The notes beneath the pieces were generated by a model. That model saw only the letters and a list, made by a program, of their open reading frames with translations. It did no database searches and was not told where the DNA came from. 64,000 bases of DNA from positions 1-64,000 of the forward strand of contig WIXG01000118.1 in NCBI GenBank assembly GCA_009869945.1. Direction: 5' to 3'. Shown here in pieces: positions 7,701 to 54,900 of the stretch (position 1 is the stretch's first letter; each line of letters starts with the position of its first letter). A program made the position numbers and the translations under genes. Source of the DNA: Mesaphorura yosii. Its lineage: Eukaryota; Arthropoda; Collembola; Poduromorpha; Tullbergiidae.

Positions 7701-10700
7701 TGGCGATCCTAGTTGGCGATGAGATGACGGCATCCGAAGACATTTAAGGAATTAATTTAGTTTCGTGTGGACCCGTCTTGACATCCTGATTAATACTATT
7801 CATTGCTTCGTACCAAAGGTGGACTGGCACTCTTTGACATGTGGTGGTGGGCCTGACCCGAGGCCCGGTATTTCAGTATTTCAATTTACTCGTCATTGTT
7901 CACTGCACACTGCTTTTGAATTTGGGAAATTCATTGTTTTCAGAATTTATGAACAAGCTACTACGCATTCGCAGTTCGCATTGCGTACGCTCAAAGGCCA
8001 AGCCAAGCAAATGTTGAGTCATGTCACACTTCTCGGTTTCAAATCCAAATTGGAATTGGTTGTGGTTAAGACCGTATTCTGTGTGGGTTGGTAGCCAAGC
8101 CAGACATGGCGCTTCGCAGCGGGCACGCAGGCATTAACCAGTTAATGCCTTAATCTTACTGTGCAGTCGCAGTCTCAGGCCCAGCCATGGTTTGTATGAG
8201 AATTCGAATGCTACCGCTGCTGCTGCTTGCATATGCAATAAAAATTGGGTGCTTTCTACTGTCGTCTTCTGTAACAGTACAAGTCTTATGTGACTATGCC
8301 TAGTTTCAATTTCAATATGTACCGTAATATCGGCGCGCGCTAAAAATAAACGCAAGACGAAGCGAATAGAAAGCTCGAAACCTTTCTGTTGTTGCAGTGT
8401 CATAATTGTGTTGGTTCGAAGTGAAGAGGAAAGTTAACAGTACTTGAACTGAACATGAGCGAGGAAAACAGAACAGAACAAGTGAATGATCCTCATAATA
8501 GACAAAGTCTTTCAAATTTTGCATTTCTTTCTTTCTTTTCTGTGCGGATGCGGATTTCATAAAGCAATGATTGAGGTTATTTTGCTTATTAAATTTGAAA
8601 GGGAAGATGAGTCAGTCGAATTTTTTGCACTTGCACCCTGAATAGCAGTCGTCGCAGAGTTCATTTCAATCCTTCATCCATGCTTCCGGTCAAATAGAGT
8701 GCGAGTGCGTGGTAGGAAGGAGAACGAACTAGAGCTCAACTATTTATAACTAATTTCTATTGTATAAACGTTGTGGTACAAATATCAGGGTGTAATTATC
8801 AAAACACCAACTACAACTCCGGAAACACGAGTATTCAATCCTCGCTCGTCTTCTTTTGTTTCGTTTGTAAGTACGCAAATAAATACACTATAAATTAATA
8901 TCAAACTCAAACTCATCATGAACTCCGAAAGCTTCCTTTTCGTCTTCCATCTTTGCCTCAAGCTCGGGAATGTTAAGGAGTTTCAGCTCTCGGCATAATT
9001 TTTTGCTCGTGCTGTTGCGGAAGCAAAGTCGAAATGGAAATTATAGCGCGGAATCTGAGTTTGAGCTTGAGTTCTCGAATTAATTATACACCTTACACAA
9101 TTCTGCGCTGCTCTTCTTTTCTTCTTGGTTCATGCTCATGACTGTGAATTGTTATCCTACAGAAGCTCAAAAGCAAGCATTTTTGACTTGCAATGAAATT
9201 AAGCAGCATGAAGCGCAATTTTCGCCTGCCCGTGCTGTTCGTGTTCAATTGCTTGCGTACGGTAATGAATAATTCAAAATTATAGCAACTAAGGAGCGCC
9301 AGAAGCATTGCAATGCATTTAACTTGATACACAGTAAAGCTTTTAATTTTAACCATCCTGAAAGTCCTGAAAGCTGCCTGCCTGTTTTCTTGCTCGTCGA
9401 GCCAAGTAGAAATTCAGCTCAAAGTAAGTAATTCGCATCTCCTGACTTAATGCACTCTCACCTGACTTGATTCGGTTCAATGCGCAAACACAAAATAAAG
9501 TTACATAACTAATTTTACGCTGGAACGTGTTAATTGGCTACTTTTGCATCTTTTCGACTTTCACGAATACTGATTTCGTATGGATGCTTATTTCAAGAAG
9601 TCAAGCGTTATTTAGCAATTAAGGACTTGATTTGCATCGTGCTCTATTTTAAGTTTCTGCGTCTCGAGACCGAGCTACCGAGTGAGTTTGCTGAAGGAAA
9701 ATGGAAATTCCCATTAGCGTATAATTAGAACAAATTAAGTTGCTGCTGAGTCCTGTGGCTGGCCTGGTCGGTCAGTGCGATGGAAATTCAAATCGAGACA
9801 AGACATATTGGTAGACATTTCGCACGTATGTGAGTTATTCGAAAGTTGTGCAAATACACTTCTTAAATCTTAATGCCATCAACACCGTACACAGAGTGGA
9901 TAATCTGGGTCTTGGTTGTTGTAACTTGAAGTATCGTAAAAGCAAGCAACGGCATCCGAACGCCCGTGAGCCGCAAGCCAACAACATTACAACTTCTGAC
10001 CCAAGAAGTTCGAAAGGGTATTCGTGCCCGAATGCGCATTCATTGCTAATTCCTTATTTCTTCACTATTTGTCTTTTTCATTATGCCGAATTTGTCTTGT
10101 CCCTCGCTTCGACTCGGACTTCGGTAAATTATGAACCTGCAATTTTCATTTGCATAAACTTAAATGTAGTAATTTTTTATTCGCCCTGCGAAAAACGCGA
10201 ACCGGCAAGACAGCATATTTAAATAATGTCAGGCTTTTGCGTGCCATCCCAGGCCAGAAGAATTTTCTTTCCGAATTCCGTCTAAAGACTTTGGCAAATA
10301 TCATATTTGGTCGTGCTAATGCCCTAAGTCGTAATGTAATGCATCATATACTACGATTTTGTGACGTATGTTAATGATAATGCTAATATCGCGTTAAACA
10401 TAAGGCTTAAGCCCAAGCTTGTTTTGTTCAAATGCTGTATTATGACAATGTACTCATTGTGCAATTCACAATACAAGACACAAGAAATGGAAGAATGCCA
10501 AGAGGACGGGTTAGTAGGCTAAAAAGACATTGCTTTTACCACCTCGTCTCGGGAAAATATTTGCATGAGAAAGAAATCAGCAAAGTTGACTTTGTATAAT
10601 TTTTTGTACTGCGAGGTGCGAGTTTTGCAGTCTTCTGCCTCTGCGTTAACCTTTTCTTTTTCAATTGTCTGTCGTGTGTGTGGTTGGCGTTGGCAGTGCG

Positions 10701-13700
10701 AAGATGCAAGGAAAGAATTTCAGAATGTGCCATATCTATTTGTCAATTGCACAAATGCGGTACTCGCATTTATATTTGCATTGTTGATCCGTGTATTATA
10801 TCATCGTCAGTCAAAAAGCTGCTTAAGCTGTTTTGGAGATGAGATTGTGAAAAGGCTGATGTTGATGTAAAAGGCGATAGAATGATGAGATGAGATGAAC
10901 TTTAGCTTTATGAAAATGAGAACGACGAGTGGGAACTCGACGCAGAAGGAATCTTATTTTATTACACCTTCTACAATCAGGTTTATGCCGTCGTAACTCG
11001 GAGTCGTATAAATTACGATAAAAGAATATCTTTGCTTGCTTATTACTTTGTCATTCTTTCATCTTCGGCTTCAAGTGTCTTGTTAACGACGGCGTCCATT
11101 AATATTAATGGTCTGAGAGGGTCTGCGACTGTGACGGGGTGAAATGCCATCGTATTACTGTGGATTGTCAATGTCAAGAATCTTCGAGCAATTTTTGTGA
11201 TGTACACAGGAAACATTAAGCACATTAGGCATTCGAGACAACAAGCATTAAGCATGCTTCAGCTCAATTTCCTTAATCGAGGCTCGCTCCCAACTCAACT
11301 CATTATCTATTTGGAGTTTACGCCAGTCATCCCAACTTCTACTTCAATTCCAACGTCAAGTTCATGAATTTCAGAATTGCGTAATCAAGTGCATGACTCG
11401 TTGAGAGTGCTCATTTCCTATAGTCTGCACTTGAGCACTTGTTGCGTCTTCGCATTGTCCATGATCATGATCAACTTCTGAACCTTTTTACTCTGCTCAG
11501 CCGAGTAGAATTGAAACGGGTCACATTTGTTATCATTTCTCGTTTCAATTTATTCTCAAAGCGAAGCGACCCAGCCCAGCCCGACTACATAAACCCACAA
11601 CTTACAAGTTGTAAGACAGGAGACATGACTGGCCTTATTGTAGCAGTAATTTTGGCAAAGAATACAAAATGACAAAATCACGCACAAATATTCGCAACAT
11701 TACTCACGTCTCTCGTCTTTGTTAGTTTCGTCTTGCTTTGCTTTGCTTTGGTCCTTTGGCTTGTCATTCATTAACAGTTGACGTGACACAATTTTTGGCT
11801 TCGCTCACTGTGCCGCACTCCACCTCAGTTTCAGTTCCATATTTCTATTTTAGGAAACTAGGTACAATTTCATGCTCGTATTCGCTAAGCCAAAGCCAGA
11901 CTATTATATCAATTAGGGACTGAGCCCAATGCGAGCATAAAAAATGTGATTTTGACGGCTGATTTGCATGAAATCAATTTTATGGGTCAATGTACATACG
12001 CCGCAGTCACAGCGCAATTGTGATTGTAGAGTGGAGTTACAAATGACACGATTACAATTGAGCTGTCATTGAGCATGCCCATAAAAGCAGACGACGGCTT
12101 GTAATGAGGCTTTCGCCAGCCAGCACTTGCCGTTCAAAACTCCAAAATGTGTTTATGTGTTAATGGTTTGTTTTAATTAGAAAAGCATGATTGGTGAAAT
12201 CAACGTTTTGTCGCCTTTTGTTACAAAGTTAAATTAAATGAGCCTGCAGATGAGCCGACAAGCCGCTTAAATGTAGTTCAAGTAAATAATGATTTGATTC
12301 TTGCTAAAGGATGAGTTCGTTTGTCATTCGTATTGGCTTCTGAAGTTCTTCAATGCTTCAGGGAAGCTTCAGGGGCTAAACAACTTCAATTCTTGCGTGT
12401 CGCGTGCATTCTTGCCAATGATCTTGCATTCACTTAATTGAGATGATTTGCGGTACGGCAGCGCAAACGGCAAATGGCAAGTGCGAAATGCACGAATGAA
12501 TTGTACGTGGTCAGAAATTGGATTACAACTGCAAACTGCAACGTAATTCCACATCAGTGCCGCTTGGCTGTGGATTTAACATCATTTTTGTTGTGTTGTC
12601 GTGCCACGCATTCCAAATGCTTCAGGCCCGGCCTCAGTCTCTTTAACGCTATAAAAATGATGACTGTCCAAATTGGCATTAATAAGTCATGAAGTCTCGC
12701 CATTGTCCGCTATGTCCATAAATTTGCGATTCGCCAATCACCAAGCTGGTCGCACTGCAGACTGCACTGCACACCTTCTTCAGCTGTCAGTTAACGGTTC
12801 ATTTTATTAACTTGCTGCAGACAACTCGGTGCAATGTACTGAGATGATAATATTTGTATTTTCTGCCCGTTGTGCTGTAATGCGGTTGCCGCTGCCACTT
12901 CGTGACAGGACAATGCGAATTCGGTACGTGCCTCACATTTTTGAACAAACGAAGCTGACATTTGCATCGATGCATTTTAATTCAATTACAATACAGTTAC
13001 GTCAAACGCTCCAACACGTTACCTGAGCGTACGTTTGACCCTTGCATTCATAAACCTTCCAGTAAAATCTTGCATGCTTTTCGTACAAGAAATTATGGCA
13101 ATTAAGGCTCAAGTACCTTAAGTGCTCTGTCTGCCACTCTGCTCTTAATGGACACTGAACAAGTATCTGCTTATTATTCAGATCCAAGAATTCAAGCACT
13201 GTATTATTACGAAATCTCCAGTATTTTTTCTTGTTCGTTCATCAAGAGCTCAATTTGTGGTAATAATTCAAGCTTTCAATTGATCTTGCATTCTGTTCTT
13301 GCTTTTAATATTTCTGCTTTCATGCCATTGCGATGAATCAAGTTAATGATTCGTATTTCGTAGCGTACGCGTACGAGCACTGCCATGCTCGTACTCGTAC
13401 TCTAATTGATACACGATAGTCTGCATCTGTTCCACCAGTGACAGATAAGAAAATGAGGGCAATATTCTCAGTCTGGTCTGGGATCAAGCCGGCCGGCAAG
13501 TCTCACTCTCGATCGTCGACGAGGACTCGACATCAACTCCATTTTTACGCTCAGCAGATTCGAGTGCAAGTATTTTGATCTTGGCAAAGCGTAAAGATAG
13601 TTTTGGCTAAATGCCGTAATTTCTCTTTTAAACCCTTCAAGAGATATTATTAGAGTGCAAGATTCCTTTCCATCCCCGATGCCTTGGCCATTATTTCACA

Positions 13701-16700
13701 ACACTCGACTCAAGATTTCATTCACTATATCCCGTACAAGTTAATGATGGTACGTAAAAGTGTCATGGCTTTAATAATAAAAATATGCCATCGTTCTCGT
13801 ACTCCCAATGCACGGAAACGAAGACGGTAGTTTTTGTAGTGCATTGCAACATTCGCAGAGGATTTACAAATAAAACAGTCGACTTTTCAAAACATCTTTT
13901 CAGCCTCAGAAGAAAAGGAAAGATCAAAAGGCTGAGGAATGTACTTCTTGATTTTAAATACAGTTGCTTGTAGTCGTAGTTGTACGAATTATATTCACTT
14001 CGCTTGCAACCGGGAATGCGACTGCAAATACAAAATACGAGCACGAATGCGTAGTGACTACTATATTGATAAATTGTAACAATGGTACCGGTGCGGGTTC
14101 AGCCAGATGCTCATGAACAGAAACGCATCTCCCTACAGAATTGCATTGATTCAGAATAGAATTGGTATTGGGTCGCGTACGTCGGTCGGGATTCGTTTGA
14201 ACAAAATATGAATGAAATCTTGAGACTCTTAATAAACATCTGCAATACTTGAAGACAGGAAAAAGGAAGGCATCTTTTCAGTACAGAGCTCGTTCGAACG
14301 ATCGCTTGTGGATCAAGAATTGTACAATGCAGTGCAATGTCGAGCAGTGAAATATTTGGGTAACTGAACCGAGAAGATCAAGACTCATTTTCTTTGCGTG
14401 GTTACAGATTTATTGCAGGAGACCTGGCCTGGCTTCCACATCTGTGTCTGCTACGGAGAGTAATATCATAACGCTATTATGGATTTGGAGTCTGTTGAAT
14501 GCTTTAGATTTAAATTAGCTTTTGAATTATTAATGTTGACTTCCGAATAGCTCGATACAAGAATGATGCGCAAAGAATAAAGAAAATTAAAGACGCCAAT
14601 GACAAAATGTTAAAATGTGTTTATTACGGACACGCCATTATTTTAGTTAATTTTGTAGTTATCGTTTGGTGCGCTTTTCAGACAATATTCAGAAATTGCC
14701 AAAAATTGAAGCAGATATAATTCAAATAAGTTACACTAACGGCTAATAGCCCCATGATGGACTTGTATCACTCCGCTTGTTTGGTGTAGCATGTACCTGA
14801 GCCATTCATTGTCCGGCACAAAATTAAGAATTTTTGTACCCAAACATGAGGAACGAAATATGCGTCGATGTGGATGTGAGCGAGACGTTAACAATGTACC
14901 GAAATGCTCATAAATCCTGAAAATTCCCATCGCATTCTATGGGAGTGAGATTCCTCTCGTTGCTCTCTGGCTCGTCTTGAATGAAATTGAAAAATTGGTG
15001 TAGCCATAGATGAATTAGATGATGAAGTGAATATAAATGTGTTAGAGAAACACGGTCGGTGCATGTGCATAGGAGAAAGATGAAGATGAGAACGGGCTCA
15101 GGGCTCAATTCACATGCACACACAACACATAGCAAAGACTACGACTTTAAAAGTAGGTATTTGTTGGAATGATTATTTCATTTACTGATGATCCTAAACG
15201 AGGAAAGGCGAAAGAGGATGTTTATATTTTCCCCATATCTTTCAGTATTATGTAATCTTTTTCTACATCTATTATGATATTCACTTCCCTGCAAGCCACA
15301 TGCATCGTCTCGCTCTGCATGAGGGTGGTTTAAAAATGTTAGAATGAACTTCATCTCCGCCTTGGGGTTATTTTTTCAAGCAGCAAGCCTCAACAGCGGC
15401 AGCGGTAGCCAGCCATCCCATCAGTTTAAAATGTTTTGGTTCAGTTCAGCAACAAGTATGAAATTTATTGAAATGAGCCTGGGCAGGATTTGTGAATCTG
15501 CGCTTTTACACCAGGCACATCCTGCCCAACCCCCGCTTGACATTCTGAGAATCTGGTAATGAAATTAGGCGCAAGTGCTCAAGTGATTGATGTATGCAAA
15601 AAATACGTGTAATAATTACCTCGCACTCGAACAGATTTGATACCTGAGGCTGATCGGAATGACAGGACTTTAAATTCATTAGCCTGCACTTTCTGAAGTG
15701 TATTTCCGGAAAAGGCGAGACACAAGAGCAAAATGAGGGCAGAGGAGGGACAGATCATGGTCAAAGCTAAACGAAACGTATTTTTATGTTTGTTGGTTTG
15801 CTGCTCGTGCTCGTAACTTCCTGTCATGAGTTTATGATTGTGGGTCTACCATATACCATCTAACAGGTCTGGCAGTGGCATTTCATGACGAATGAATTAA
15901 GTCGTGTGCGTGGCTCCGAAATGAAAGACGACTCCACGATAGAACAATACGAAAATATCCAACTTCATGACGCCAATGATGAGAAAAATTCATGCCACAA
16001 GCAATAATTTCTATTTTTATTTCTTTTGCAGATCTTACAGAATCTGGGCAAAGTCGATCGCACAGCAGACGAAATATTTGACGATCATGTGAGTAACTTC
16101 AATAAACAACAATTTGCTGCCACAAGATTACAGAAGGAACTGAACAACTACATCCGTTGTATTCGAGGTAAGTACGCAGGCGCAGTCATCCGTCATAGTT
16201 CTAATTCTAGTTTTTAGCCTATTCGATGTCTGTTTAGTATTATTTACAAATTATTGATAAAAGAAAGCAAATAGCAAACGATCGAATTTCATGTTCACGT
16301 GTTCACGGAAGTTTACAGTCGTAATATGAACCTTTCAAATAACGCAATTGGTTATTAGAGATCAAATTTTCTCTTCACACTCCTCTTAACTGTGAAAACA
16401 CAGATGTATTTACTATTTACCATCAGGTTTAAGTCAAGTCCACGTTTTATTTGATTTCAAGCACAAAATGTGTGCACTGGCCAAGCAATTTTATTACTTA
16501 TTTATTCAAGTAAAGCTCGATTGGGATGATCGACCCTTCAAACGCAAATGCGCAGGCAAGCAGCGTTTTTTTGCAAAATGAATCAAAGCAATAAGCAAAA
16601 ATGTGACCGCACTGCACTGAGAACAAGTGGGATAGGTATTCAGTAGTTATTCATTCATTGATATTCAGGCACATGCGCCTGCAGCTGAGAAATTAATTGC

Positions 16701-19700
16701 AGAGTACGTATGTGAAAGGATTTTACAATTTACGTGGGACCAGAATCAAAGCCAAGCCAGGTATTGGGAATGCAATACCAATTCAGGGAAATGCCGTAGA
16801 ATTATTGCAAACTTTTTTTTACAATTGAAGTCGTTTAGTAAAAGTGGTCGTTTTTTAACTGTTTCGTTTAGCTTGCGCAGCCGCGAACAAATCACTCTTG
16901 GAAGCTGTGACCGATGTGTACGAGCCGGAATGGGGCGACAAGGACACACTCAGCGTTAATACGCAACAAGTGGAGATGCTGTGGAATGATTTTGCACATC
17001 GACTGGCCGAACAAGTTCTGATCCCGCTTAACACCTACCAGGTGAGCTTAATCTCGTCGCGTCATATTCATAATATCGACATCGAAGTGCACCGCGTGAG
17101 TGTGCGCAGTAAAACTCGCGACTCGTTATCGGATTTTACTAATGAGGTTTCTCAGAAACTGACAACGACCAGTTTTAAAGAAAATGTCGACTGCTGAGAA
17201 TACCAGAAGTCATTAACTCAGAATTCTAGCTTCCTTTCTAATTTGCTTCCTACGTGCACATTTTAGGAGTGCGCTCTTAATTCAATCACGTATTCAAGAT
17301 GAACGCATGAGATTCATAACTGCGGAGAATTTTCACCGTTGCGAGCAAAAATAGACTACTTTCGTATGCTGATTGCCGGCATCTTTCAATCAGCGTCTTT
17401 GGTAGTTTGCATTTTTAACAGACTCCGTTCAATATTTACGCTTATGCTCTTTATCTTTGCAGGGTCAATTCCCAGAGATGCGCAAGAAGATTGAGAAACG
17501 TGGTCGAAAGTTGGTGGACTTTGACGGAGAGCGTCACGCACTTCAGGCACTGCAATCGAACCCACGACGAGCTGAAGCAAAACTTTCGAGACAACGCGAA
17601 AATCTTGAGGCAGCCAAACGAACATATGAGGTTAATACGCGCAATAATAAAAATTCAAGAACAAAAGGCGATTTGCGCTTGCGCTGTTGACGTGTTTTTG
17701 TTTTGCAAAGTCAAATTAGCGAATGTTCATACGCGGCCTTTATAAGGATTTAGAGTGTTGAGTAATTGTAAATTGTAGACCAAAAGCTCGGTTGGGTCGA
17801 GCTAAAGATTTCATTTTCATACGAAAGGCGCAAGAGGAAGGGAGTTATTATCATGATTATTGTAATTACGATATCCATTTTATTACTGAGTCCTGCATTG
17901 TTATTATTGTTTATGACGGTGGACCGGCACTGAAGTCGGCGATAGGCGACAATTCTCTATTAAAATGGCAAATAGTGACGCCTGATATGCAGAAATAAGT
18001 GCAAATCATTCTGCATGAATCTTATCGGCGAGTTATCTTGATCGCTTGCATTGCAAATGCAAACTTTCCTTCGCACTTCAGCATTTCGCATTCGCAATTC
18101 GCTAGTATAATTTGAAAATATATCGCTGCGAAAAGTTTATGGTAAAAGTAAAGCCACATCCACGTGTAGGAGGCAAGATTTCGAGATTGTGTATAAATAT
18201 TTTGTTTTATGCCCTTCTTGAAGCTGAAATTGTGCAATAAACCGCCTACACAAACAAAGTTTTGCTGCACGTGAAAGTAATTGGCTATTGCGCATTGCAC
18301 AAGTAAATCTTGCGTACAAACAAGGCTCACGTAAAATATTTTCTAATATCTGGGCAGCAACTGCATATCCCAATGACATAAGACGATTAATGAATATTGA
18401 CCTCTTATTTTCGATGCTTGTTTTCCAGGTTTTGAACTCAGAGCTTCATGAGGAGCTTCCGGGACTGTATGGCTCTCGCATCGTGTTTCTCGTGAGTGCC
18501 ATGTCTACGCTGTTTGCATCAGAAAATATATTTCATTCAGAATCGGCAAAGGTAAGACAAGTTACTAAATTGCTCGAATTTTGCTTGCCAATGCATGTAA
18601 CACAATTTCAACTGTCTGGCAGATATTTCAGGAATTTGAAGGCGTCGTGGAGCGTTTGGCGAAGGAGAGTGCAAAGGGAACGTTAAATTTCAAATCATCC
18701 AACAATGCCATACTAAACAATCGAGATTCAATGAAAGACGGTAAGTTGTGTGTCTTTGTCTGGAATAGAACAGAACCATGTCGATAGTCAATTGACAACA
18801 TTTCCGACCACAAAGTGGAATCCGTGAATAGGCAATTGCCAATTCTGCGTGCTTGTGTTATTTGTCATTAACCACATGTAGCTTAGCCACGTAACAATGT
18901 ACAATGATTTGGTATTGCTCATGCTGGTTTTGTGCACGAGAATTTGCACGTGCAATATTTACTAACATGTTAACAACGTGGTGCTGTGTTTTTACTCGCC
19001 AGTCGCTACGCTACTTTAAATAGCCCGTCCAATTTGAGTTTGGACGTGGAAAGTAAATACAAAAGTACGAGTACGGCCTTGTCCCTCCGTATTTACTTAG
19101 CCATTAAGAATTTTATGCTGTGATAAGTGTGACTCGATTCTAAACAACCAAACATGCAATTGTGATTCCGACAACGCTGAAACAATACGCACACGCTAGC
19201 ATTTGTGTAACCCACCTTCCCATTCCATTTCTCACGGTTAATTTGGTGTTTAGCTTTGGCTGCGACGTTATGCACGTATTTACGTCGTAATTGAATTGCC
19301 ATTTCGCTGCTATTATGAGAATTGCGTGAATTTCCTTGCTGTGGCCTTGACTGACTGACTGAGTATTGCATTGCACAAAGCACCTGCATTTTCACATCGC
19401 AATCGTAAAGACGCGATGGAGACGGCGATGGTGACGTTAAAAAGCGATACCGAATGGGAGTTGATGTTGACATCTCATTTTGTGCATGCATGATTTATCC
19501 AACCTATTCTTATATTTTTCATTGCTTCTCGCTTTCGATTGTTGGGAACTGAGAGATTCACGATCACACATTAAAAAGCTGAAATTGCTACCTTTACTCG
19601 CTTAAATCACTTTTGTTACTACACCTTGACTATTAAACCTAAGCCTGTGATTAAGCTTCTATTTGTACGGGTTGGCTTTGTTATGTAATTTCGATTTCAT

Positions 19701-28069: not shown

Positions 28070-29131
28070 AACAAAGGAGAATGTGAACTGAAACCACGCG
28101 TCACGTGGTAAGATTTCGAAAATTGGTGTGGCATGTGCATTTGCGGTTGAAATTGGTTAAGATTTTGAGGATGAAATCTTCCTGATTTTAGAAAGGAACT
28201 TCAGTGCTCAGGTTCCCACCTGTGATGCTGAAACCAGAAGGATGGAACTCCGACGGGTTGCTTTTACAGGCACGCTGAAATGTGTTGGGGCTTAAGATAT
28301 GAGAAAAACCCTTAGCGTGGATTAAAGGTACTAATTCTGTGCCGTTTATCCTTTGTGAAGACATAAATTGTGCAAGGAATCATAAATTTTAACGCATAAA
28401 TTCTAATTTGGTGCAGGTGGTGTGAACTCTGAATGGCAATGTTGTGAAAATCAACTGCGTCACCGAACCCTCGCTTCTGTCAATGAATTCAATCTAATTT
28501 CGATGAAGCAAGTGGAAGTCAAGAAGAAGACGGGCAAATTCAATTCGGTTATGTTCCTGATTTCCTCCTTGATATTTTGAGTATTCGTACTTAATTTCGT
28601 TTTCGCATCTTCTTTTTCAAAAGATCTTATATTTTATAATTTACGTCTTGCAATTGTACCTCATATTTCAGTCACTCGGATGATATTTGCATTGCATTTA
28701 CCTCAAGAATACAAATACAAAGTTGATAAACGAACTATTTACGTGTATGCGGTCAGACTTTCATAAACTCTTCTTAATTACTAAGGCTAAGTACGTCTAC
28801 AACGTGAGTGACTGTCTTGATTGTTCTAGGCGGTAATTTGTAACTAACACTATTTGTATTGACGACTTGAAGAGCTTGTTATATCTCAACTTGTTGTATT
28901 TATTGAATAGTCATTAAGTCATGTTTTGTACGAATAAATCAGTGACACTTGTGGCAGCCGAGAAATTCTCCTTAATTCACTTTTCTTTGCAATTAGTCCA
29001 ATTTAGAATAGTTGAACATTTTTGCGTATATAAACAACCACATTTTACACACCGCAAATCGTTCGCCCAACTCACGTTAGCTTCTGCAAGCTCACTTCAT
29101 AAGCAATCATAAGATTCAGAAATTAGCAAAA
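28070..29131. other. Intergenic, with TATA box of the first small-peptide gene
   Basis: Short ORFs only. The right end carries the TATA motif listed separately and the presumed transcription start of the gene at 29132. I see nothing else. Confidence 0.4.
29027..29034 (+). promoter_or_regulatory. TATA box for the 44-aa secreted-peptide gene
   Basis: TATATAAA lies 98 bases upstream of the ATG at 29132. This leaves room for a start site near 29060 and a 5' UTR of roughly 70 bases, a normal layout for a highly expressed small secreted-protein gene. Confidence 0.55.
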
Positions 29132-29266
29132 ATGGAAAACAAATTGTGCTGGCTGGTCTTTGCTGCGATCGTCGTTCTTGTAAACGCTTTCTCAGTGTCT
29201 GGAGACGCCGGCTGGGCGACAACACTGATGGACGCAGACTTGGACTTGGACGAGCGTGAACAGTAA
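29132..29266 (+). CDS. Small predicted secreted protein A (44 aa)
   Basis: A single-exon ORF of 44 residues. A charged start (MENK) and a hydrophobic signal-peptide-like core (LVFAAIVVLVNAF) are followed by a short acidic mature part with GDAGW and DADLDLDEREQ. It has one cysteine, inside the signal, so no disulfide fold is expected. Its layout matches gene B 0.5 kb downstream: hydrophobic leader, then GDxxW and xADLD. The two look like diverged tandem duplicates. A GTAAGG overlaps the stop codon, so a further spliced exon is possible. I do not recognise the family. The TATA box at 29027 supports a real promoter. Confidence 0.5.
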   Translation: MENKLCWLVFAAIVVLVNAFSVSGDAGWATTLMDADLDLDEREQ

Positions 29267-29723
29267 GGGTTCCGCAGAATTTTGGTCTGTCGGTAAGCGA
29301 ATCTGTGGAATGACTTCAGCCTTTATGACTTCCGGTGAAAAATTCAGCATTGGTTTATTTTCTTAGCAATCCACGACCACAGCTGCACAACGAGCGACTA
29401 CTTGTTTTAAAATATGAGTTATCGCGTATATTATTTTTGTGTAAACGGCCAACGAGCGTAATAAAGCAGGGTAATTTGGAAAATTACGAATAAAGGCTTA
29501 ATCAGACCCGCTTTATGGGGTGTGCTGACGGATTGAAACAAATTAAATGCATCATGTACGAATCAGCTGAGACCACAGTACTAATTGCTGTCATTTAATT
29601 GAGCCTAATTTAATTAGTCCTCATTTCGTCTCATAAAACGCGGAACTCTAATGAGCCTAATGCTTTTCAATCAACTCACGTTTCCACATTTGACATTCAA
29701 ACTCGTTGCGTGACACAATTAAC
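29267..29723. other. Intergenic between secreted-protein genes A and B
   Basis: AT-rich, with no coding signal beyond a possible extra exon of gene A behind the acceptor at about 29,366 (TTTTCTTAG), which I could not substantiate. Confidence 0.3.
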
Positions 29724-30018
29724 ATGGACTCCAAACTATTCTGGCTTAGCGTTTTCGCATTTCTCCTCGCTTTCGACGTGATCTTCGTTTTCGGAGACGA
29801 CAGCTGGTGGATTGGGTTGGAAAATGCTGATTTGGATGCGGGAAGAGAGTCTCGAAGCGCTGAGAACTCTGACTACGTTCGTAAGTGATCTTTCAGGACT
29901 CGGACTCCAGGCATCAGAGAGGCGAACTTTATATGTTGGTTATGATTTGGTTTCAGTTGAAGACGACGCGAACTTGGCGAATTTGCTGTCAAGAGTCACA
30001 CGACGAGCATTGCGCTAA
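29724..30018 (+). CDS. Small predicted secreted protein B (72 aa)
   Basis: Two exons, 29724-29880 and 29957-30018, joined in phase 1 across a 76-base intron (GTAAGT...TTTCAG). The 72-aa product starts MDSKLFW, has a long hydrophobic leader (LSVFAFLLAFDVIFVF), then GDDSWW, NADLDAGRES and a second-exon tail LEDDANLANLLSRVTRRALR. The tail has dibasic and basic sites (TRR, LR) at its end. No cysteines occur after the leader. It shares leader style and the GDxxW...ADLD pattern with gene A. The family is unknown. A membrane or secretory-pathway peptide is the plain reading. Confidence 0.55.
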
Positions 30019-30385
30019 CTGGAAGTACTGTATCTTGTGTATTCATTGCTTGCCCTTGTTCTTGTTCTATTAATACGCATTAAAGACGAGATAAAAAAGA
30101 ACACATCATTTGTGCAGATGTGCATACTGATTAGCATCAGCACTACCATTACGCATGGGTGATTACCATTGCGCTGCGGTGTGATGCAATTAAGATGAAA
30201 CCGCACACTTGCGTTGCTAATTAAGTTGAGAGACCAGATAATAATGGGAGAGAAAAGATACTAATCAATAGGAAAGAGTTTAGGACGACGATCACAATCA
30301 TTTTGCCACTGTCAGTCCGTCATCTCCGCGTTGCTTTGATTCAACAGCATTCGACTTGACGAAGATTTTCCATCCTATTGTCACA

Positions 30386-30655
30386 ATGAGAGGACAGGTG
30401 TTAACAATGCTGGCGATGGCGTTGTTGTTCGTCTCTTTTCCAAATTTTGGCTGCGGTAAGTATCAATGATCTATTTCTTTCTACTACTGCGTGATCGAAT
30501 CTCAGTGTCGCACTTCATTGAATTCAGCGACCTACCGAGTGATTAAGTTGGAGTACAATCGATTCAGTCCGTACAACAAGCCGAAGATTGGCATAACTGC
30601 AACTCTCGAAGATTATAACACAGCATCCAAATCAAGTGGCTTGGGCAAATTTTGA
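30386..30655 (+). CDS. Small predicted secreted protein C (65 aa)
   Basis: Two exons, 30386-30455 and 30528-30655, in phase 1 across a 72-base intron. The first exon is essentially a signal peptide (MRGQVLTMLAMALLFVSF...NFGC). The second encodes a mature part of about 42 residues rich in Tyr, Lys and Ser (YRVIKLEYNRFSPYNKP, ending SSGLGKF). The splitting of leader and mature parts by a phase-1 intron is typical of secreted-peptide genes. I do not recognise the mature sequence, and it lacks cysteines beyond the putative cleavage site. Confidence 0.5.
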
Positions 30656-30962
30656 GCGACCGGAGTGCGTAAATTGGAGCATTTCTTAATGTTCTTATTG
30701 AAGAACTTTCCTCAGAGCGCAGTGAAGGCATTGACGTGATGAAGGGACTAATTAACAAAAAAATTATTATCTGCAGTTGTGTGCGGGTAAAGGAGACGGA
30801 GGATTGCATATTGCATCTCACTCATCCCACAGCCAAAAATTAGCCCTAGAATAGAACGTATAGTTTAAATTAGCAATAAATCGATGCCACATTTCAGTGT
30901 AAAATGTCAAGCCAGTGTTTAAATTCAGGATCATGTTATTGAGCCAGTACGGATCAATACAA
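30656..30962. other. Intergenic between genes C and D
   Basis: No supported coding exon or motif was seen. Confidence 0.3.
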
Positions 30963-31267
30963 ATGAGCGTGTTAGTTCTACTTCGTGTAAGTAAGCTCTG
31001 CATCAGCGTAAAAAGTGCAACCGCAACTTTTGCCAACGATAACCCAGAATTACAAGTAATAGAACTGAAGCAGGGTGTTGCCAGTGAGGACGATTCTCTG
31101 GATTTTGGTATGTTGACTCGTCAATTGAGAAGTGGAAGTTGATTTATGGTGAATGGATTCCATCTTCCGTAGTGACAGAATCGTCCGAGAATGCCCACGC
31201 CGATCCTGAGCCCGAGGGTTTCGACGACGAGAATGTCTTGGACGCACTAGATTTTGATGTCTATTAG
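30963..31267 (+). CDS. Small predicted secreted protein D (79 aa), acidic
   Basis: Two exons, 30963-31107 and 31173-31267, in phase 1 across a 65-base intron (GTATGT...CCGTAG). The leader is weaker than in its neighbours (MSVLVLLRVSKLCISVKSATA), and an upstream in-frame ATG at about 30,936 is an alternative start. The mature part is strongly acidic: ASEDDSLDF across the splice, then HADPEPEGFDDEN and LDALDFDVY at the C-terminus. The product is unknown. The acidic, Leu/Asp-rich style recalls genes A, B and F. Confidence 0.4.
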
Positions 31268-31709
31268 TGTAATGCCCCATGCAATAGCAACATTGACGGT
31301 ATGTGTAACACAGCACACAATTAGTAAGTACGCAAGAAATCAGAATAAATCAGCCAAATCATACATGCGCATGTTTTTCAATGATTCCGTTTACTCACTA
31401 CAAAATACTCGACGTTTTTACGCACATCAATAAAAGTTTTGTGAGGCAGAATTCATGCGAAGTGCACACTAATCAAATCATAAAAGGCACAAAACCACAA
31501 GTCCACGAAGAGCTTGCAGATATCGCCATTGTTGATAATTGCAGCCCCGAACAGAGGCGTAAGGACTTCTCTAGCCAGAATGGCTTCCTGAATAGATTAA
31601 ACCATACTTGAGGTTTCTTCCCGTACCCACAGTTCAAACTGTGCCTATGAAACCTTTGCGCATACGCTGGTCTGCATTGAATTGGATTGGAATCAAGCCA
31701 TTGACGAAG
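31268..31709. other. Intergenic upstream of gene E
   Basis: A 76-codon ORF at 31381-31611 has no domain or signal and no convincing splice sites. I see nothing else. Confidence 0.3.
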
Positions 31710-32490
31710 ATGGGCAAGAGCGGATTACCTGGGCTGTTGCTCCTCCTTGGAGCCGTGACCCTTTGCCAGGGTCAACTGTACCACTACAAAAGTAAGTTCG
31801 AATCCATCAACACAATTGTTTCTGTCTCTTTTAGTACGGACTACAAAGAATATAGTTATTTTTTACCTTCATACATTTTCTGAAATTTAGCTGTGAACGG
31901 AGTCATTAAATTGGATAAATCGCAAGGTTAGTCTTGGACTTCAAATACACTCGAAAACTTCATTTTAATGGTACAATGCTTTCTTGCAGCTGATCATGGA
32001 ATTAAAGCTCGAGAAATTCAAACGCGTGAATTTGGGAAACTTATCAATCCAAATTGTAAGTGTGACTATTCTGTCATCTGTAATTTGATCGTTCCTACAA
32101 GTTACCGACTGAGAAATTGCCCACCCTTATTACAGTTATCCCATTGGCAAAGCGTGCCCATCCTCTTGATTATGACGTTATGAAGAGGCACGCTATTTCC
32201 GTTCCGGTAAACGCTCGCCGTCGTCGGAGCATCCCCACCTCTGACCTGAAGAAAAAACGACTTGTGGAAGTCGAAACCAGGGAATCTGAAGACAGTAAAC
32301 GGGAGGCGCGCGAGCTGAGTGAGCGGATGACACTGAGAGACTTAAAACGTGAGAAACTCGAATTAATTCATTAAAACTTGGAATATATTTAAATCAAATC
32401 GTATCGCATTTATTGTGCGTATTTTCAGGTTTCATCAAATCTGTGAGCCACAGCCACCGCGACATTCATCTCTACCGCAAAAAGAAATGA
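31710..32490 (+). CDS. Prohormone-like secreted protein E (152 aa) with multiple basic cleavage sites
   Basis: Five exons (31710-31791, 31891-31926, 31990-32055, 32136-32348, 32429-32490), every intron phase 1, give 152 aa. The signal peptide is clear (MGKSGLPGLLLLLGAVTLCQGQ). A spacer follows, then a run of basic sites: LAKR (to residue 68), MKR (78-79), RRRR (89-92) and KKKR (100-103). These delimit short segments AHPLDYDVM, HAISVPVNA and SIPTSDL. The rest is a very basic helix-prone tail (KREARELSERM, HLYRKKK). No Gly precedes the basic sites, so C-terminal amidation is not predicted. A polyadenylation signal AATAAA is at 32554. This is the shape of a neuropeptide or hormone precursor, but I recognise no known peptide, and a basic structural or antimicrobial protein remains possible. 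Confidence 0.6.
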
Positions 32491-32931
32491 TTTCCTGAGC
32501 AGCATCTGAAAAGCGACTACGACTTTTATGGACATTTTCTTACACTTCAACGGAATAAAAGTTCTCCTTTGTACAATTTCATGTGTACACATTTTAAATG
32601 AATTCTATTAAGATCATATCTTCAATCTTCATATCTTCAACTTGTGGTTGGCATGATTGATTTGCAAGTGCAACTTCACAGTCCCGAATGCCAATTAACG
32701 CAATATTTGCCTACTTGTGGGATAATTGGACAGTAGCGCATCAAGCCTCTTTATTGAACGTTGCGGTTTCTACCACCAACGGAGGCATTCACATTTCCGG
32801 AGTTGATTAAAGATTCCATCATGCTGTACTGTGAGGGTAGGCAGGCAGGCTGACTGAACTGCATTTGCTGGTTGGTTCGGCGCATTTTTAACACTGAAGT
32901 GCCTGAAGTATAATTATTACCTTCCTAAAAC
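32491..32931. other. Gene E 3' UTR and gene F upstream region
   Basis: Contains the AATAAA at 32554-32559 that should end the gene E transcript. The remainder is non-coding as far as I can see. Confidence 0.4.
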
Positions 32932-33640
32932 ATGTTCAGATTGGTGCTAGTGTTATCCATTGTTGTGACACTGTCTCTGGCCCAGAATTATGTTCTGGAA
33001 GAACGTAAGTAGACTGGTAGCATTGTTAAGTATTGTCCAAGACTGATACTGCCATTTTTGTTTCAGTGCCGCCATTGACAGCAGGAGGCAATGGACATGG
33101 AAACTGTAAGTACGAAGTGCAGCAGTGCAGTTTTACGAAAGCATTGAAAATAAACTTTGCAGCTTTCTATTCGCTTTTGTTTCAGATCAGGACGTGATGG
33201 ACGGCAGAGGTTCAGACGGCGAAAAATAATAAATTAGCGTTTACTAGCCACATTTTGGGTTGCACTTCTCATTATCATTATCATTTCACAATCTACAGAG
33301 TCACCTCTTGAAACTGCTGCCAAGCTGGACAAGATCAGGGAAATTGCTCTTGACGATGATATGGACTTGAGTTCAGCAGAAGGAGACGACATGCCGTGTA
33401 AGATTTCTGCTTTTTATGAATTAAAGTTGACTTTCCAAAATCTTGTTTTGCACGGACGCCCAACACAATTTTCTGTGTTTTGTAGACCTGGACCTTTCGG
33501 TACCCGAAAACGCAGACAAGATTTCTTCACAGACGAGTAAGTTCAATATCGTTTCGACCTTACTGCCTAATTGTACTGTGCTGTGTAGCTGTCGCTAAAT
33601 ACTCCATACTTATTGTTTTGCAGTTGTAGTAGAGAAATGA
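32932..33640 (+). CDS. Small predicted secreted protein F (100 aa), acidic
   Basis: Six exons: 32932-33004, 33067-33105, 33186-33209, 33299-33397, 33486-33536 and 33624-33640, all introns phase 1, give 100 aa. The signal peptide is clear (MFRLVLVLSIVVTLSLAQ). The mature part begins NYVLEELPPLTAGG and becomes acidic (LDDDMDLSSAEGDDMP, YLDLSVPENADK), ending IVVEK. Without the third splice, whose donor GTTCAG is weak, the protein would end at 33229 (...GSDGEK), giving a 51-aa form; both may exist. AATAAA follows at 33679. The family is unknown. Very small phase-1 exons encoding short acidic blocks suggest exon shuffling or rapid turnover. Confidence 0.55.
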
Positions 33641-34712
33641 AGAGCCGCGTACAATTTTGTACTTCGACAAAAGTTTGGAATAAAACATGGGCATTTCTTC
33701 TTATTATCGTACTGTTGGCTGTTCTCGCATTTCTTTCTCAGAAAATGCAGGCAAGAAAGCCTTGCCTGACAATTCATTTCTTCTAGTTCCAGTTCTAATT
33801 TCAGTCCGAGTCCCACGCATTTCACATGTCGGCCTCAATGCTGGACTGTCAGCGAGTTGACAAGCAAGACAGACACAGAAATTGGGTGAAAAATGGCTCG
33901 AGTCCATTAGGCTGAATTAGCTTTCTTTCTTTTTTCACCATTTCTACCTGACAGATTTTCTCATCGTAACTTTGCAACATATTGACTATTTTGACAGCCC
34001 AACATCGGGCCAGGCCTTGAATATTACGTAAATCGAAATCGCGACTGGGCCTGAATAATAGCATTTGTATTGACAAATCCTGCGAATGCCAAACTCATTG
34101 ATCCGCACTTTCTTTAGGTCCAATTACTTCGAGATATCTCCAACTGGTCATTTACGCTGCACCATGTGCTGCTTACGTGTACACGGGTGTCTTAAATTCA
34201 GAGCAGAAGTTGTGATTTGCGAAAATCTCTCGATTCGATTCATGGCCGTCATTCAGTCAGTGTAATCGATTTCGTTCTAATTCTCATGTTTCATTTGCAC
34301 TGGCAGACCTGAGAACTTATTAACGCAAATGGAGAAACTTTCTCCACAGAACGAGTCTACGCAATTTCGGTTACTGACTACACGCTGTCTTTTGTTACTG
34401 ATGACAGTTCACGACAGGGAATGCCGTGAGGATGATAGGCGATATTCACGTCTTTCATCTTGTTTCGTGATTTGCTAATGGAATACTACCTCGCAGCGCA
34501 GTGAGCCATCATAATAAAATCAGATTACGAAATTACGAGCACGATTACGCATCTAACTCAAGGCCAGCTGTCTCGCTAGAATTGGGAGTTGGGTGCTGGA
34601 AAGCGCTCTCCTGTGAATCAGTCCACGCTGTACCTGCCGTATGTCCACATCAACCGCTCAACTTCCGGTGCAATATTTTATCCACGTGAATTTGAACGTT
34701 ACGGCTAACAAA
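33641..34712. other. Intergenic between gene F and the DOMON gene
   Basis: Begins with the gene F 3' UTR (AATAAA at 33679-33684). The rest holds only short unsupported ORFs. An ATG in frame with the DOMON gene at 34641 was judged less likely than the one at 34713 because the latter directly precedes the signal peptide. Confidence 0.4.
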
Positions 34713-41127: not shown

Positions 41128-43074
41128 TTACTGCGTGGACGGAGTACAAGGCTGCTGGATGTAATCTACGGGGCAAATAAAAAAAAGCCAGGTGAGGTAA
41201 TGTAATGTATAACCAGGTAATTACACAAGGCATACTAGTACTATCTCAATACTTACTGAGACAAAAGCCACGATTGCCAAGATCGTTCGTTTCATTTGAG
41301 TCGGTATGCAGTGTGATGCGGAATGGTTTCGAGTAGCCTGCAAATTAACGTTAATTAATCTGAGCATTTTTGAATGTCAATGGCGCCAGTAATGGTAACG
41401 GACACTATGGACTTACTGAATACTGGCATTTGCACTTGCGATGGTTCGCTATTAAACACATCCCCACAAATTCTGTCCTGACACACAGTCCCACCCAGCT
41501 GCGCTACCCGCCCAGAATTTGTCGCGCAGGGAATGGTGATCCAATCCGTCTGACAACTTTGCGAGCTAACTTGAGCTCCGATTGATTGCCCAGCAGTAGC
41601 TTGTCCAGTCAGCGAGAATGCACGCGAGCGCTGATTTTGCTGAAGTTGCTGATTCGATAAGGTTTCTACAAGAAAAATTTGTGTTCGTATAGTTTGAGAG
41701 GACAACACAGCGCAGTTCCTGTTTTGTTACCTGTGTCAGTACACGCTGTGTATCTGATCCCACAAAAATTCCGTTCCATTCGGATGCAAGCTGTGTAATC
41801 CTGATTTGAGAGTTGTTGGCCAGCAGCAAAGTCAAAGTTGTACGAACGAATGACACCGCTGACGCCCTGATGGTATTGGAGGCAGCCTTCGGGTGAGCGA
41901 CTGATGGAATGACATCGAATTTGGGTGATTTTGATTTTCCACGAGCGTGAGTATGTCGGGCCACTTGTGACGACCGAAAGCGTGACGGGGCTATTGTCAT
42001 AACCCGCGACGTCAATGTACACTGTGAAGGAAATGCACACGATGTCCATTTCAAGCTACAAGAATTTACTCTGAGGTCATCTTACTGTGGTTTCCACTGT
42101 TGATTCCGCAAATGATCGGCACAGCTTGTGAGCTACTTCCAGACACAATGAACTGATCATTATTGCAAATTCCATTGGACCCAGGCTGAGCGATGTTGAA
42201 TGAGTCGAAATCCAGTCGAATCTGGCAGATGTCCGGACTCGCTTTATAAACTGTTAGCTGACAGCTTCCGGTTCCGTCAAATGATGTGGGATAGCCACTG
42301 TGAGTGAAGTACGTCGCGTTCTGGCTTGTTGAGGCCCCGCACGACTTAGAAACTAGCCACATGAGAGACGAAGGTTTCGGAAACTGTCTGAACAGTCTGA
42401 GCGTCTACGTTCAGGAATTGGATAGTAACTTACTAATGCAGCACACGCCGTAGCCTTGTGCGCATTTCCCATTTGGTGACCCTCCACGGCGATAGCATTC
42501 ATTGCTTGGGTAACAGGTTCCGTTGTCTCCAGAAGCACTGAGGCACTCCGTATTGTCGAACCTCACAACGGTGAAGAGCGACAAGACTGGAAGCGGATTC
42601 GCAAAACAAAATTCAAGCCAATTAGACAAGCACGAGGACTCCAGGAGAAGAAAAGGACAAATCACGCTTACATCTTCCGTCTCGGTCAGTCACATTCAAA
42701 GGCGGAGCTGGTGGTCCCGGTTTGGCCACAATGGACCCGCTGACGAATCCTTTTCCGTTCGGGACGGCATTGTAATTGTGGTTCCCGCTCGCACTCATTT
42801 TCTTGCGAGAGTGTCGTTCATCTGTGGCGTCCTCGCCAGCTACGAGCCCACTCAGCCACTTGCCAATGAAGGGTATCTGTCTCTTGATACGATGAAGCAA
42901 GCCTGCTTGCTCCTGCACCTGCAGAAGTGGCGAGGGCCCGGGTCTAGGCTCCAGCACTTCAGGACTGTCAATCTGCAGGTCAGGAATATATTCGACATCG
43001 GCTCCAAACGCTGACGAAATGAAAGCCAGCAGCAATGCTGCCAAAATTCCAGACAACAAACTTTCGAACTTCAT
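41128..43074 (-). CDS. Arthropod-type secreted CUB-domain protein
   Basis: Seven exons, every intron phase 1: 42672-43074, 42434-42586, 42086-42352, 41731-42021, 41417-41665, 41257-41337 and 41128-41165, giving 493 aa. A signal peptide (MKFESLLSGILAALLLAFISSAFG) is followed by a linker with basic sites (HRIKR, HSRKK) that could be furin-cleaved. A Cys-rich module with GTCYPSNECYRRGG and GYGVCC comes next, then a CUB-like domain (CQIRLDFDSFNIAQP, CNNDQFIVSG, ICGINSGNHMYID). The final conserved block carries DWITIPCA, CGDVFN, NRGFCL and NYIQQPC. This domain order is a large lineage-expanded family in insects and crustaceans with no settled function. A TATA-like element at 43131-43140 lies 57 bases upstream of the start. 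Confidence 0.85.
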
Positions 43075-43130
43075 GATTACAGTGTCGAGGTTAAAAAGTG
43101 ACTAAACCATTGTCAATTGTTGTGCACGCA

Positions 43131-44339: not shown

Positions 44340-45680
44340 CTATTTTAGGGGCTTCAGGGCTAAAACATTGTGAACCGTATTCTTCAGCAAAGCTCCCAAT
44401 CCCAGACCGACGGGCTGGGTTGATACGGGAGCGCCTGATTTTGTTTGCTGGGATTGTTGTGCCGTTGGCAGAGCCGGTGGTGGTGTAAATTGTTGCGAGG
44501 GATTAGGTACCAGTAATTTCTGCAGATTCTGCATGATGTCTGCCATTTCCTTTCGGACAAGCTCGAGTTCCCTTGTGGTCGCCTCGAGGTTTGACTCAGT
44601 CTCCTTTAAACGCTGTTCCAGCGATTCAGTACGAGCCTGTTCTTTCTCAATCTGCAGAATGTGACGATAATTTTGGCAATAGTACCAGTGACATGTTTTA
44701 CAATTAAATCATTACATATTCAGTTATCGCTTTTTCAAGGGATAGGACGGTCCTCTCGATTTCGATGACTCGTAACACTGCACCACCAAATTCCAATTCG
44801 ATCTTGTCCAGCTCATCTTGCCGTACCGTTCTGGTACAGCAATCATTTGAGTCATTTGAACTGGAATGTTTCAATTTCAAATTTCTTGGAACTGAACCGA
44901 TCTATGGCGAGAAATGTTCCTTTTATGTAGATTCGGTTGTGCCCAAGAAAATTTTGGGAACAGACCTTCTCTGGCTTATTATTTGACTCTGCAGTCATCA
45001 GATCGTTTGCAGTGTCGCACTCCATGAGATATTTGCTCCACTCTTCGGACTTGCACTTTGTCAAGGTTTCTTTCCAATTTTTAAATCCCGAGAGTGTGTG
45101 AATTTGTTTTGCACACTCGATGTCGTCGGAGATGTCATCGTCGATTAGCTCTGCAAATGATCAAATTGGACTGACGACAGCCACCACCATGCACGGTTTA
45201 GAAAACCTTTTGAAACTTGATGTTACCTTTACAATCTATTCCGCAGTGATTCGTAGTGGACACCATGTTCAGATCGTCGTCATCCGAGTTGCACCAAGAT
45301 TTGCTGTCAATCTTCAAAACCATTTGCCCAAATTATGCTTGCGCTTTACTCACGTAAAATTGACTGAATTTGTACGTTTTACCCCAAACAGTCCACATTT
45401 ATTTGTGCCATTCTTCCGAAACGATGTTGAAAATTCACTTTCTTTCTCCGCAATGCAAACCCCTGCAGTAGTACAAGGCAAGGCCTGATTCATTTGCGAC
45501 CTGTGTCATGGCTTCTATTTACCTCAACTTTTACTTACATTCTTCGACCGGTTCCAGTCTGTACTTGGTTTGGAGAAGATCTGCGAGCTCACATTTTGTA
45601 AACTGTTTCGATTCACTAATCCTGCTATAAATTACTAGAATAGCAATGCAGATTAGCGCCGCACTGTCACGTTTGTACAT
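44340..45680 (-). CDS. C-type-lysozyme-like domain fused to a coiled-coil tail
   Basis: Six exons with matching phases (45539-45680, 45383-45462, 45227-45311, 44966-45150, 44716-44901, 44340-44651) give 329 aa. After a signal peptide comes a lysozyme domain: KQFTKCELADLL, WVCIAEKESEF, CGLFGIDSKSWC, LIDDDISDDIECAK and GFKNWKETLTKC. All eight canonical cysteines are there, plus an extra Cys70. Glu55 matches the catalytic Glu35 of hen lysozyme, but the catalytic Asp52 position is Lys69, so muramidase activity is unlikely. From about residue 190 a coiled coil follows (DKIELEFGGAVLRVIEIERT, EQARTESLEQRLKETE), then a Pro/Gln-rich tail and a hydrophobic GLGLGALL end. The two halves are linked by a phase-0 splice (donor GTCTGT, acceptor CCATAG). 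Reading through instead would stop the protein about 35 residues after the domain, so both forms are possible. Confidence 0.7.
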
Positions 45681-51939: not shown

Positions 51940-54900
51940 CTACGTATTTGGACTCGGCTTGAGTGCCAGCCCATTTCTCAGTCTCGCCCAAAACAGTGCC
52001 TTTTCATTCGCATCTGCCTCCGCACCTGGCCACCGAAGGTACGTCGTGGACTTCATCAGATACGTGAGTACCTTCGTGCGCTCTTTGGCAGGAATCTCTT
52101 CTAGGAGAATGAGTAGAAATGATTTGCGCCTCACTTCAACGAGGCGATGATAAGCTAGATTCATCTCGAACAGGCACCACTGCGATTCTAAATAGTTTCT
52201 AGACACTATGATGAGCACTTTACGAGAGCGATCCACGCACTCGATTATGTTTTCGGTGATCGACGCACCGACTTCGAAGTCTCGTTCGTGGAGACAAACT
52301 CTGAAGCCGGATTCGTCCCGTTGTCGCTGCAGTTCACGCTGAAGCTGATCTTCATTTGGTATAGGCAACAGCTTTCCCTTACCTTCGAGCACAGGGACCA
52401 GATCCTCTTGAATGAACGCTGAATCATGATGGCTGTACGAGATGAAGACGTCGTAGTCAAAGTTTTCGGCCTTCACACTGTAACCTTCACTATCACTTGT
52501 TTTCTTCTTGCGAATTAGTCCGCTTTCACTGTGCTTTTCTTTCCTTGCCATCAGCCTGAGTTGTATATCGAACCAAAAGTATTTCAGGTCCGATCTTCTC
52601 TGGTAAGCAATCACTCCACAAGCAACAACCACGAGAGAACATGTTGCAATAATTATAATAGAGGTTTCGGACGAAGTTAGAGTTGATTCTGACTCGAACT
52701 CTTCATTTCTTGGATCTTCCTCGTCTTTCTGTTCTGTCGTGGGTGTTAGCGACAATTCAGTGCTTGACGGTAAGCCGGGGCTGGAGACAGGGCAGTCCTC
52801 ATTTGTCAACGAATTGATGGGCACTCTGATCTGCGGTGTCTTGTAGCAACGGTAACTGGCCGGAGACTCATCCCAGCCTTGTAATTGAAGTTCGCCACTT
52901 TCCACCACACTTTTTAAGCTGCACACACCAGCATCACAACCGAAGGGATTTTCGGTTACATCTATCGTCGAGCGGACTAATCTAAAATCGCTTATCATAC
53001 AAGGGGCAGTTGTGACCAACAGATTCTCAGACAAGTGCACTTCGTCCAGGTTGAGGTTATTGGCAAATATTTGAGTAGCCCACGGTTGGATCTTGTTTCT
53101 GTTCAGATTCAAGTACTGCAGGTTGACCAGAGTCCCGAAAAGTTCGGGGTACAGCTGCGTAATTTGGTTATTGGACAAGTCGAGGGTCTCCAGTGCCTCA
53201 AGGTGTCTGAACGGTTGTTTTGGAGGCTCATTCTCGCCTTCGCCCTCTGAAACCGCGGGAAATGACAAGCCACAACCGGAGAGGATTAATGTTCGCAGGC
53301 TTTGAAGTCCATAATTCGTCCTTGGGCTCGGGTTGAAGCTGATGCCACCGGTGAGTGGATTGCCTCGCATGTCGAGCTTTGTCAAGTTCGGTGTGTGCAA
53401 AAAGAGTTCATCCTCAAGTGCCCTTACGTTTGAATTTTGCAAGGACAGAAACTCGAGTCTCGTTAGCCCTTCAAATGTGCTGGCATTCAGGGAATTTAGC
53501 AGAACGTTATTCATGTACAATTTTTCCAGTCTGGTCAACGACTCGAATGCTTTGTCTGCAATTTGGAATGCGGTGCCTCGGGAGTCTCGATTGTTACACA
53601 GGCGCAAAATTCTCAGATTGACAAGTGGGCCAAGAGCCAATGGAACCGTTGTCAGCTCGTTTCCTCGAACTGACAGCACTTTAAGATTGGGAAGATTTGC
53701 AAATGCTCCTCTTGAGATTTTTGAAAGCTTGCAAGAATCTAGATTTATCGCTGTTAACGTGCTCATCAATGGAAATGAATCGTCGGCCAGTTGCAACAAA
53801 CTGTTTCCTTGCAATTCGAGGTTGCGAAGCGTTTCTGACATGATCATAAGAGCCTCTTTGGGAATGCGTTGCAAACTGTTGTATGATAAGATGAGACTGT
53901 TAATGTTCGCGTTGGCCAGTCCAATGGCGGTGGAGGTTAAGTTGCCCATCAAGTCGGGATTTTCGCTTAGGTCAACCAGTAAAATTGTCGCGAAAGCATC
54001 GAAGGCATCTGCAACAGAATCAAGGCATTTCATTATCCAATATTCTAAGTTTCTGCGATGATGGAAATGCATGAGTAGACGTATACAATTTTTATACAAT
54101 CGCAGCAATTAGTCATCCTGTCAATAAACGTTTAACTTTAAATATTGACGATTGAAGTCTCTTAACTTGTTTTTCAAAGTTGACTGTCAACTTTTCTATT
54201 CTCACTAAGACGAAACAAACACTGCTGTTCTGCAGCTGATATTCATCATCACCCGCCAGCCGCTTACATAAGTATGCAATTTAAGTTGAAATTTACTTAT
54301 CTCAAATTTTATTTTTACATTCCACTACTTTATGGCTACAAGCATGAAAGCTTGTGATCAGGTCTTCTGCAGTGCAGCATAGAAAAGCGATAAGAAGCGT
54401 TGTCATTGTCAAGTACTGTTTAAATTCGCCAGCCATTTACCTTCGTCAATGTAATTCAGCTTGCACGCACTCAAATCAATTTTCCACACGACTTCTGTGT
54501 TTCGAAAGCGAGCAAAGAAGAATGGCGGAATGATCTCCAGGGAATTCGATCTCAGGCTGATGTCGCGGATGGAAGTTAAGTACGGCCCGTTGACTCCGAA
54601 GTCTGTCGGCAGTCTATCGTCCGACTCCCTATTTTGGAGCACGAAAGGAGTCATGCAAATGCGATTATGCTCGAGCTCAATCGTTCGGAGAGTTTCAAGG
54701 CCGCTGTGTGCGTGAAACCAAACAGGCACTTGCAAATTGTTGTTGCTCATTATCAAACGCTGCAGCCCATCCACATCCTCAAATGCGTCATCCGCAACAT
54801 ATTGGATCTTATTATCTTTCAGATTCAGCTCCTGCACATGCACATTGGAGAATGCTCGTGATCGTACACAGCGCACGCTCGTCGCAGTCATTTCGAACAC

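Follow-up and report, generated by a model that had tools for sequence, protein, structure and literature searches.

A compact cluster of predicted small secreted-protein genes with phase-1 introns in the collembolan Mesaphorura yosii

The window analysed here is a stretch of 64,000 nucleotides at the start of contig WIXG01000118.1 of the collembolan Mesaphorura yosii (assembly GCA_009869945.1). Six plus-strand gene models could be fitted by manual splicing into positions 29132-33640, where a sequence-only reading had placed six such genes, and the acidic stretches quoted in that reading are present. Gene 1 (29132..29266) was modelled as a single exon of 44 aa with a hydrophobic leader and the acidic tail DADLDLDE, and it is flanked by TATATAA at 29027 and by AATAAA at 29460 and 29489. 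The single-exon structure proposed earlier gives an open model, but it is unsure, as a GTAAGG donor at 29263 (phase 2) and an acceptor at 29367 allow a further exon; gene 1 may thus have a second exon from 29367, behind a phase-2 donor. Gene 2 (29724..30018; exons 29724-29880 and 29957-30018; 72 aa), a paralogue of gene 1, is followed by ATTAAA at 30079. In gene 3 (30386..30655; exons 30386-30455 and 30528-30655; 65 aa) the leader exon ends in a phase-1 donor, and AATAAA lies downstream at 30875. The acidic gene 4 (30933..31267; exons 30933-31107 and 31173-31267; 89 aa), with AATAAA at 31344 and 31429, has a doubtful start and leader. The longest model is gene 5 (31710..32490), which has five exons and encodes a basic protein of 152 aa with five KR sites; a four-exon form of 140 aa ends at 32374, and AATAAA is found downstream at 32554.

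For gene 6 two forms were modelled. The short form (exons 1-2-3, 32932..33229) joins 32932-33004, 33067-33105 and 33186-33229 into 51 aa, and an AATAAA at 33228 overlaps its stop, while the long form (exons 1-4-5-6, 32932..33640) joins 32932-33004, 33299-33397, 33486-33536 and 33624-33640 into 79 aa and is followed by AATAAA at 33679. When exon 2 (33067-33105) is joined to the later part (33105 to 33299), codon 38 becomes TAG, and the two halves of the gene would therefore be alternative tails, or be linked via a poor GTTCAG donor; the variant through this donor stays open, and exons 1-2-5-6 are likewise in frame. Gene 6 may accordingly make two products.

Leaders and cleavage sites were called by a simple hydropathy and small-residue rule. 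The leaders are good in five of the six genes (maximum 11-residue Kyte-Doolittle mean 2.63-3.18), whereas that of gene 4 reaches only 1.96, so the description of the genes as small and secreted holds by hydropathy for five members and is weak for gene 4. The proposed lack of cysteines in the mature parts is right for genes 1, 2, 5 and 6, which have none from residue 23 on, but in genes 3 and 4 residue 23 itself, in or near the leader, is Cys. Cysteine-stabilised venom or defensin-like peptides were considered and rejected, as no model has more than one cysteine from residue 23 onwards. The products had also been called often acidic, which is true of genes 1, 2, 4 and 6; those of genes 3 and 5 are basic.

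The splice signals and leader exons in this region are strongly concentrated. Between 29100 and 33700 (4.6 kb) GTAAGT occurs nine times on the plus strand and not at all on the minus strand, where the contig rate predicts about 1.4, and in 14 kb of presumed non-coding sequence there are three on the plus and one on the minus strand. Seven of the nine act as donors in the models, and those at 30987 and 31324 are unused. The whole contig (C118, 203,949 bases) was scanned on both strands for a hydrophobic leader followed by a strong donor, which gave 15 hits (four in phase 0, seven in phase 1 and four in phase 2). Four of the seven phase-1 hits are genes 2, 3, 5 and 6 of the cluster, and the other three are at 93574, at 101519 and, in a lysozyme gene on the minus strand, at 45538; gene 1 is listed among the hits in phase 2 and gene 4 is missing. 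Six Markov-1 random contigs scanned with the same settings gave 2, 2, 1, 2, 1 and 0 phase-1 hits, and 2 to 9 hits in total. The settings for leader position had been widened after a narrower, window-only version listed just genes 3 and 5 of the cluster, and the controls used the widened settings. Four leader exons in 4.6 kb correspond to a Poisson probability of 5.6e-8 from the three outside cases, or about 5e-6 after a rough window correction, for a place that was picked post hoc. Of the hydrophobic-leader exons with phase-1 donors outside the cluster, two on the plus strand were noted at contig positions 93498 and 101446.

Codon scores were compared with open stretches of 3501-17500. These mutually overlapping stretches, none longer than 135 nt, were taken as non-coding. 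The fraction of these null stretches scoring at or above the models per codon was 0.006-0.008 for genes 1, 2, 4 and 6, 0.041 for gene 3 and 0.032 for gene 5. The score is beaten by another plus frame in gene 5, and in gene 3 by a frame on the minus strand of its spliced exons. An AATAAA or ATTAAA lies downstream of every gene, and in 28500-34500 there are 18 such hexamers on the plus strand and 7 on the minus strand; they are weak evidence, since several of those on the plus strand sit within introns or exons. TATA-like matches, counted without a control, are present upstream of genes 1, 2 and 5, with weak TTTAAAT ones upstream of gene 4, and none was seen upstream of genes 3 and 6.

The model introns measure 62 to 99 nt, except for the first intron of the gene 6 long form (33005-33298, 294 nt). 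It had been proposed that the cluster contains eleven introns, all in phase 1. Every intron of the valid models is indeed in phase 1, but the exact count of eleven was not confirmed; a 33105 to 33299 join in gene 6, if it was part of that count, gives TAG, and if the possible phase-2 donor of gene 1 is used, then not every intron of the cluster is in phase 1. The lengths of all six internal model exons (36, 66, 213, 39, 99 and 51 nt) are divisible by three, compared with those of 16 among 35 loosely paired regional candidates, a result that is not independent because the models were chosen to stay open. An excess of phase-1 introns is known for proteins with signal peptides (Tordai and Patthy; Vibranovski et al.), as described in the available text of PMC1626468. 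As far as that text goes, these genes and the present cluster are alike in having phase-1 introns both close to where the leader is cleaved and in the rest of the gene; the cluster is unlike them in that the introns of its valid multi-exon models, although few, are all in phase 1, while the possible intron of gene 1 would be in phase 2. The uniform phase 1 fits the signal-peptide rule in the form given there and does not call for a special process of exon gain, such as had been proposed.

The earlier suggestion that the array has grown by duplication applies to genes 1 and 2, and no other pair of different genes exceeds shuffled sequences (smallest p 0.14). The protein match between genes 1 and 2 scores 68, compared with 26.5 (SD 6.5) in windowed shuffles, and at the DNA level the match scores 36, while the highest score among 300 shuffles was 30. 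Judged from these alignments, the two genes are the sole clear paralogues in the cluster, and a single tandem gene family was rejected, similarity beyond composition being limited to this pair. Genes 3-5 have VIKLE, VIELK and VIKLD in common near the mature start. As a triple they give p 0.002-0.004 when the first 25 residues are compared and 0.014-0.036 for 45, for a post hoc motif in one of ten triples, and as pairs nothing significant (p 0.27, 0.36 and 0.61); at most, then, these three genes have a weak, post hoc motif in common. The YVLE common to genes 2 and 6 has p 0.017, as one of nine pairs tested.

The statement that the products belong to no recognised family agrees with a Pfam search of the seven models, none of which gave a match over the cut-off; the sub-threshold matches were PilX_N (E 0.11) and MFD_D3 (E 0.1). 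The protein-database search covered genes 1, 2 and 5 and finds only proteins that have exact five-residue words in common with the query; within this scope gene 5 had no match among 28 candidates and the gene 1/gene 2 alignment none among 5. A PDB sequence search with gene 5 gave a single match (E 0.54), which was taken as chance. In the animal's own genome (93.0 Mb, 1127 contigs), searched with one query per gene and with gene 6 as the long form, each gene found its own exons only, apart from one weak match of gene 6 to C262 (E 2.66, 34% identity, one stop), which was also taken as chance. The gene 1 query missed gene 2 and vice versa, and these searches are therefore insensitive. As DNA, the first 1 kb is single-copy in the genome. 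The proposal that the locus is lineage-specific is consistent with the failure to find a relative for gene 5 or for genes 1 and 2, but it is weakly supported, as close kin of the animal seem to be absent from the database; the missing relatives could reflect thin sampling, because the best match of its Toll genes, among the matches listed, is only 43% identical. In the literature texts that were retrieved, no published account of the cluster was found.

What the computation documents is a cluster with leaders, splice signals, a strand bias, one tandem duplication and no Pfam match over the cut-off. The array is largely real, yet it is not the uniform duplicated family that had been proposed, and the locus is of an ordinary kind, a compact cluster of orphan small secreted-protein genes with one tandem pair and a gene for which two forms are probable. 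Our reading of the sequence is that about six small genes, real and densely packed, probably lie here, and that five or six encode short proteins predicted to be secreted, with no relative found so far. Frames that are open by chance in intergenic DNA and give no protein product might look similar in that all models are short, no relatives turned up where searched, and genes 3 and 5 have weak codon scores that another frame exceeds; the strand-biased GTAAGT, the clustering of leader exons and the paralogy of genes 1 and 2 are all far from chance, however, which makes such an origin highly improbable.

The number of units is less firmly fixed. Parts of the array might be alternative exons of fewer, larger units, in which the gene 3 leader may also be spliced to the exon of gene 4 at 31048, with gene 6 as one gene whose tails are mutually exclusive. 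The AG before 31048 brings the gene 3 leader into frame in phase 1, this leader would outdo gene 4's own start as a leader, the gene 4 ATG lies about 55 nt past the start of the gene 3 AATAAA, and the junction stop in gene 6 leaves two forms. Every model is followed by an AATAAA or ATTAAA of its own, however, and the acceptor at 31048 is absent from those passing the acceptor filter, so that we regard fewer units as a possible but rather doubtful arrangement. Splicing of the gene 3 leader to the upstream gene 4 acceptors at 30898 and 30929 was rejected by eye, as it runs into a stop. It is tempting to go further and picture a modular locus, where alternative splicing within and between neighbouring genes (the gene 6 tails; the gene 3 leader to gene 4) would join a leader exon to interchangeable phase-1 mini-exons and so give combinatorial extracellular peptides. 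Because every internal model exon starts and ends in phase 1, exons could be skipped without loss of frame, and if leader and tail exons are truly combined in this way the locus would show in a small space how symmetric phase-1 exons can diversify peptides, but we consider such a scheme quite improbable.

With about six separate genes as the preferred reading, signal peptidase would remove the leader and short acidic peptides would be released extracellularly from genes 1, 2 and 6 and perhaps 4, and gene 6 could bear two different tails on one leader. Gene 5 would be a basic precursor, and cleavage at its KR and RRRR sites by proprotein convertases could yield seven pieces, each 11-47 residues long. 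Its five KR dipeptides compare with 2.1 expected (p 0.035), the dibasic excess is marginal (p 0.02-0.04) and RxxR is unenriched (p 0.64), so that the KR excess is at most suggestive of convertase processing. Gene 5, and perhaps gene 3, might alternatively be a neuropeptide or hormone precursor and not an effector, as the gene 5 leader together with the five KR sites and RRRR would split the tail into short pieces. By eye, however, no peptide recurs among these pieces and none of the KR or RRRR cut points is preceded by Gly, the dibasic excess is only marginal, and no relative of gene 5 was found in the protein database, while many neuropeptides are conserved; we regard such a precursor as rather unlikely. 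As a guess, the products are most likely extracellular effectors (immune, glandular or reproductive) and not structural protein. Salivary, seminal-fluid and immune-induced peptides of arthropods are known clusters of short secreted orphan proteins, and the present genes resemble them in being short, leader-bearing, clustered, partly tandem-duplicated and without a recognised domain. They are unlike them in having no Pfam match over the cut-off and in being mostly dissimilar to each other. The result is a clearly bounded group of orphan secreted-protein genes in an animal that, judged by its Toll genes, has no close kin in the protein database, and at present these genes are candidates for studies of expression and peptidomics.

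All neighbouring features noted in the window lie on the minus strand. At 44700-45680 there is a C-type lysozyme gene with the leader exon MYKRD...KQFTKCELADLLQ and a phase-1 donor at 45538; no Pfam family matches the leader exon by itself, and Pfam Lys is matched by a later frame of the gene with 28.8 bits (cut-off 27). Two tandem Toll-like LRR-TIR genes occupy 51940-60417. For their frame at 56605-58839 the closest entry among the matches listed is an ENA entry (43% identity, E 2.5e-157), and the best named match among those listed is from Ceratitis capitata (E 9.2e-54). The presence of lysozyme and Toll genes within 30 kb is at most a hint towards immunity. A predicted secreted frame at 42622-43101 has a KR site followed by the amphipathic-looking stretch QIPFIGKWLSGLVAG; downstream of it is a cysteine-rich piece in another frame, with no Pfam match at E 0.01. 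The frame at 49782-50249 matches the malate synthase TIM barrel (E 3.9e-40), an enzyme that many animals lack, and at 61930-63674 a Glycosyl hydrolase family 30 frame (50.5 bits, cut-off 27) is adjoined by a sub-threshold CBM_4_9-like frame.
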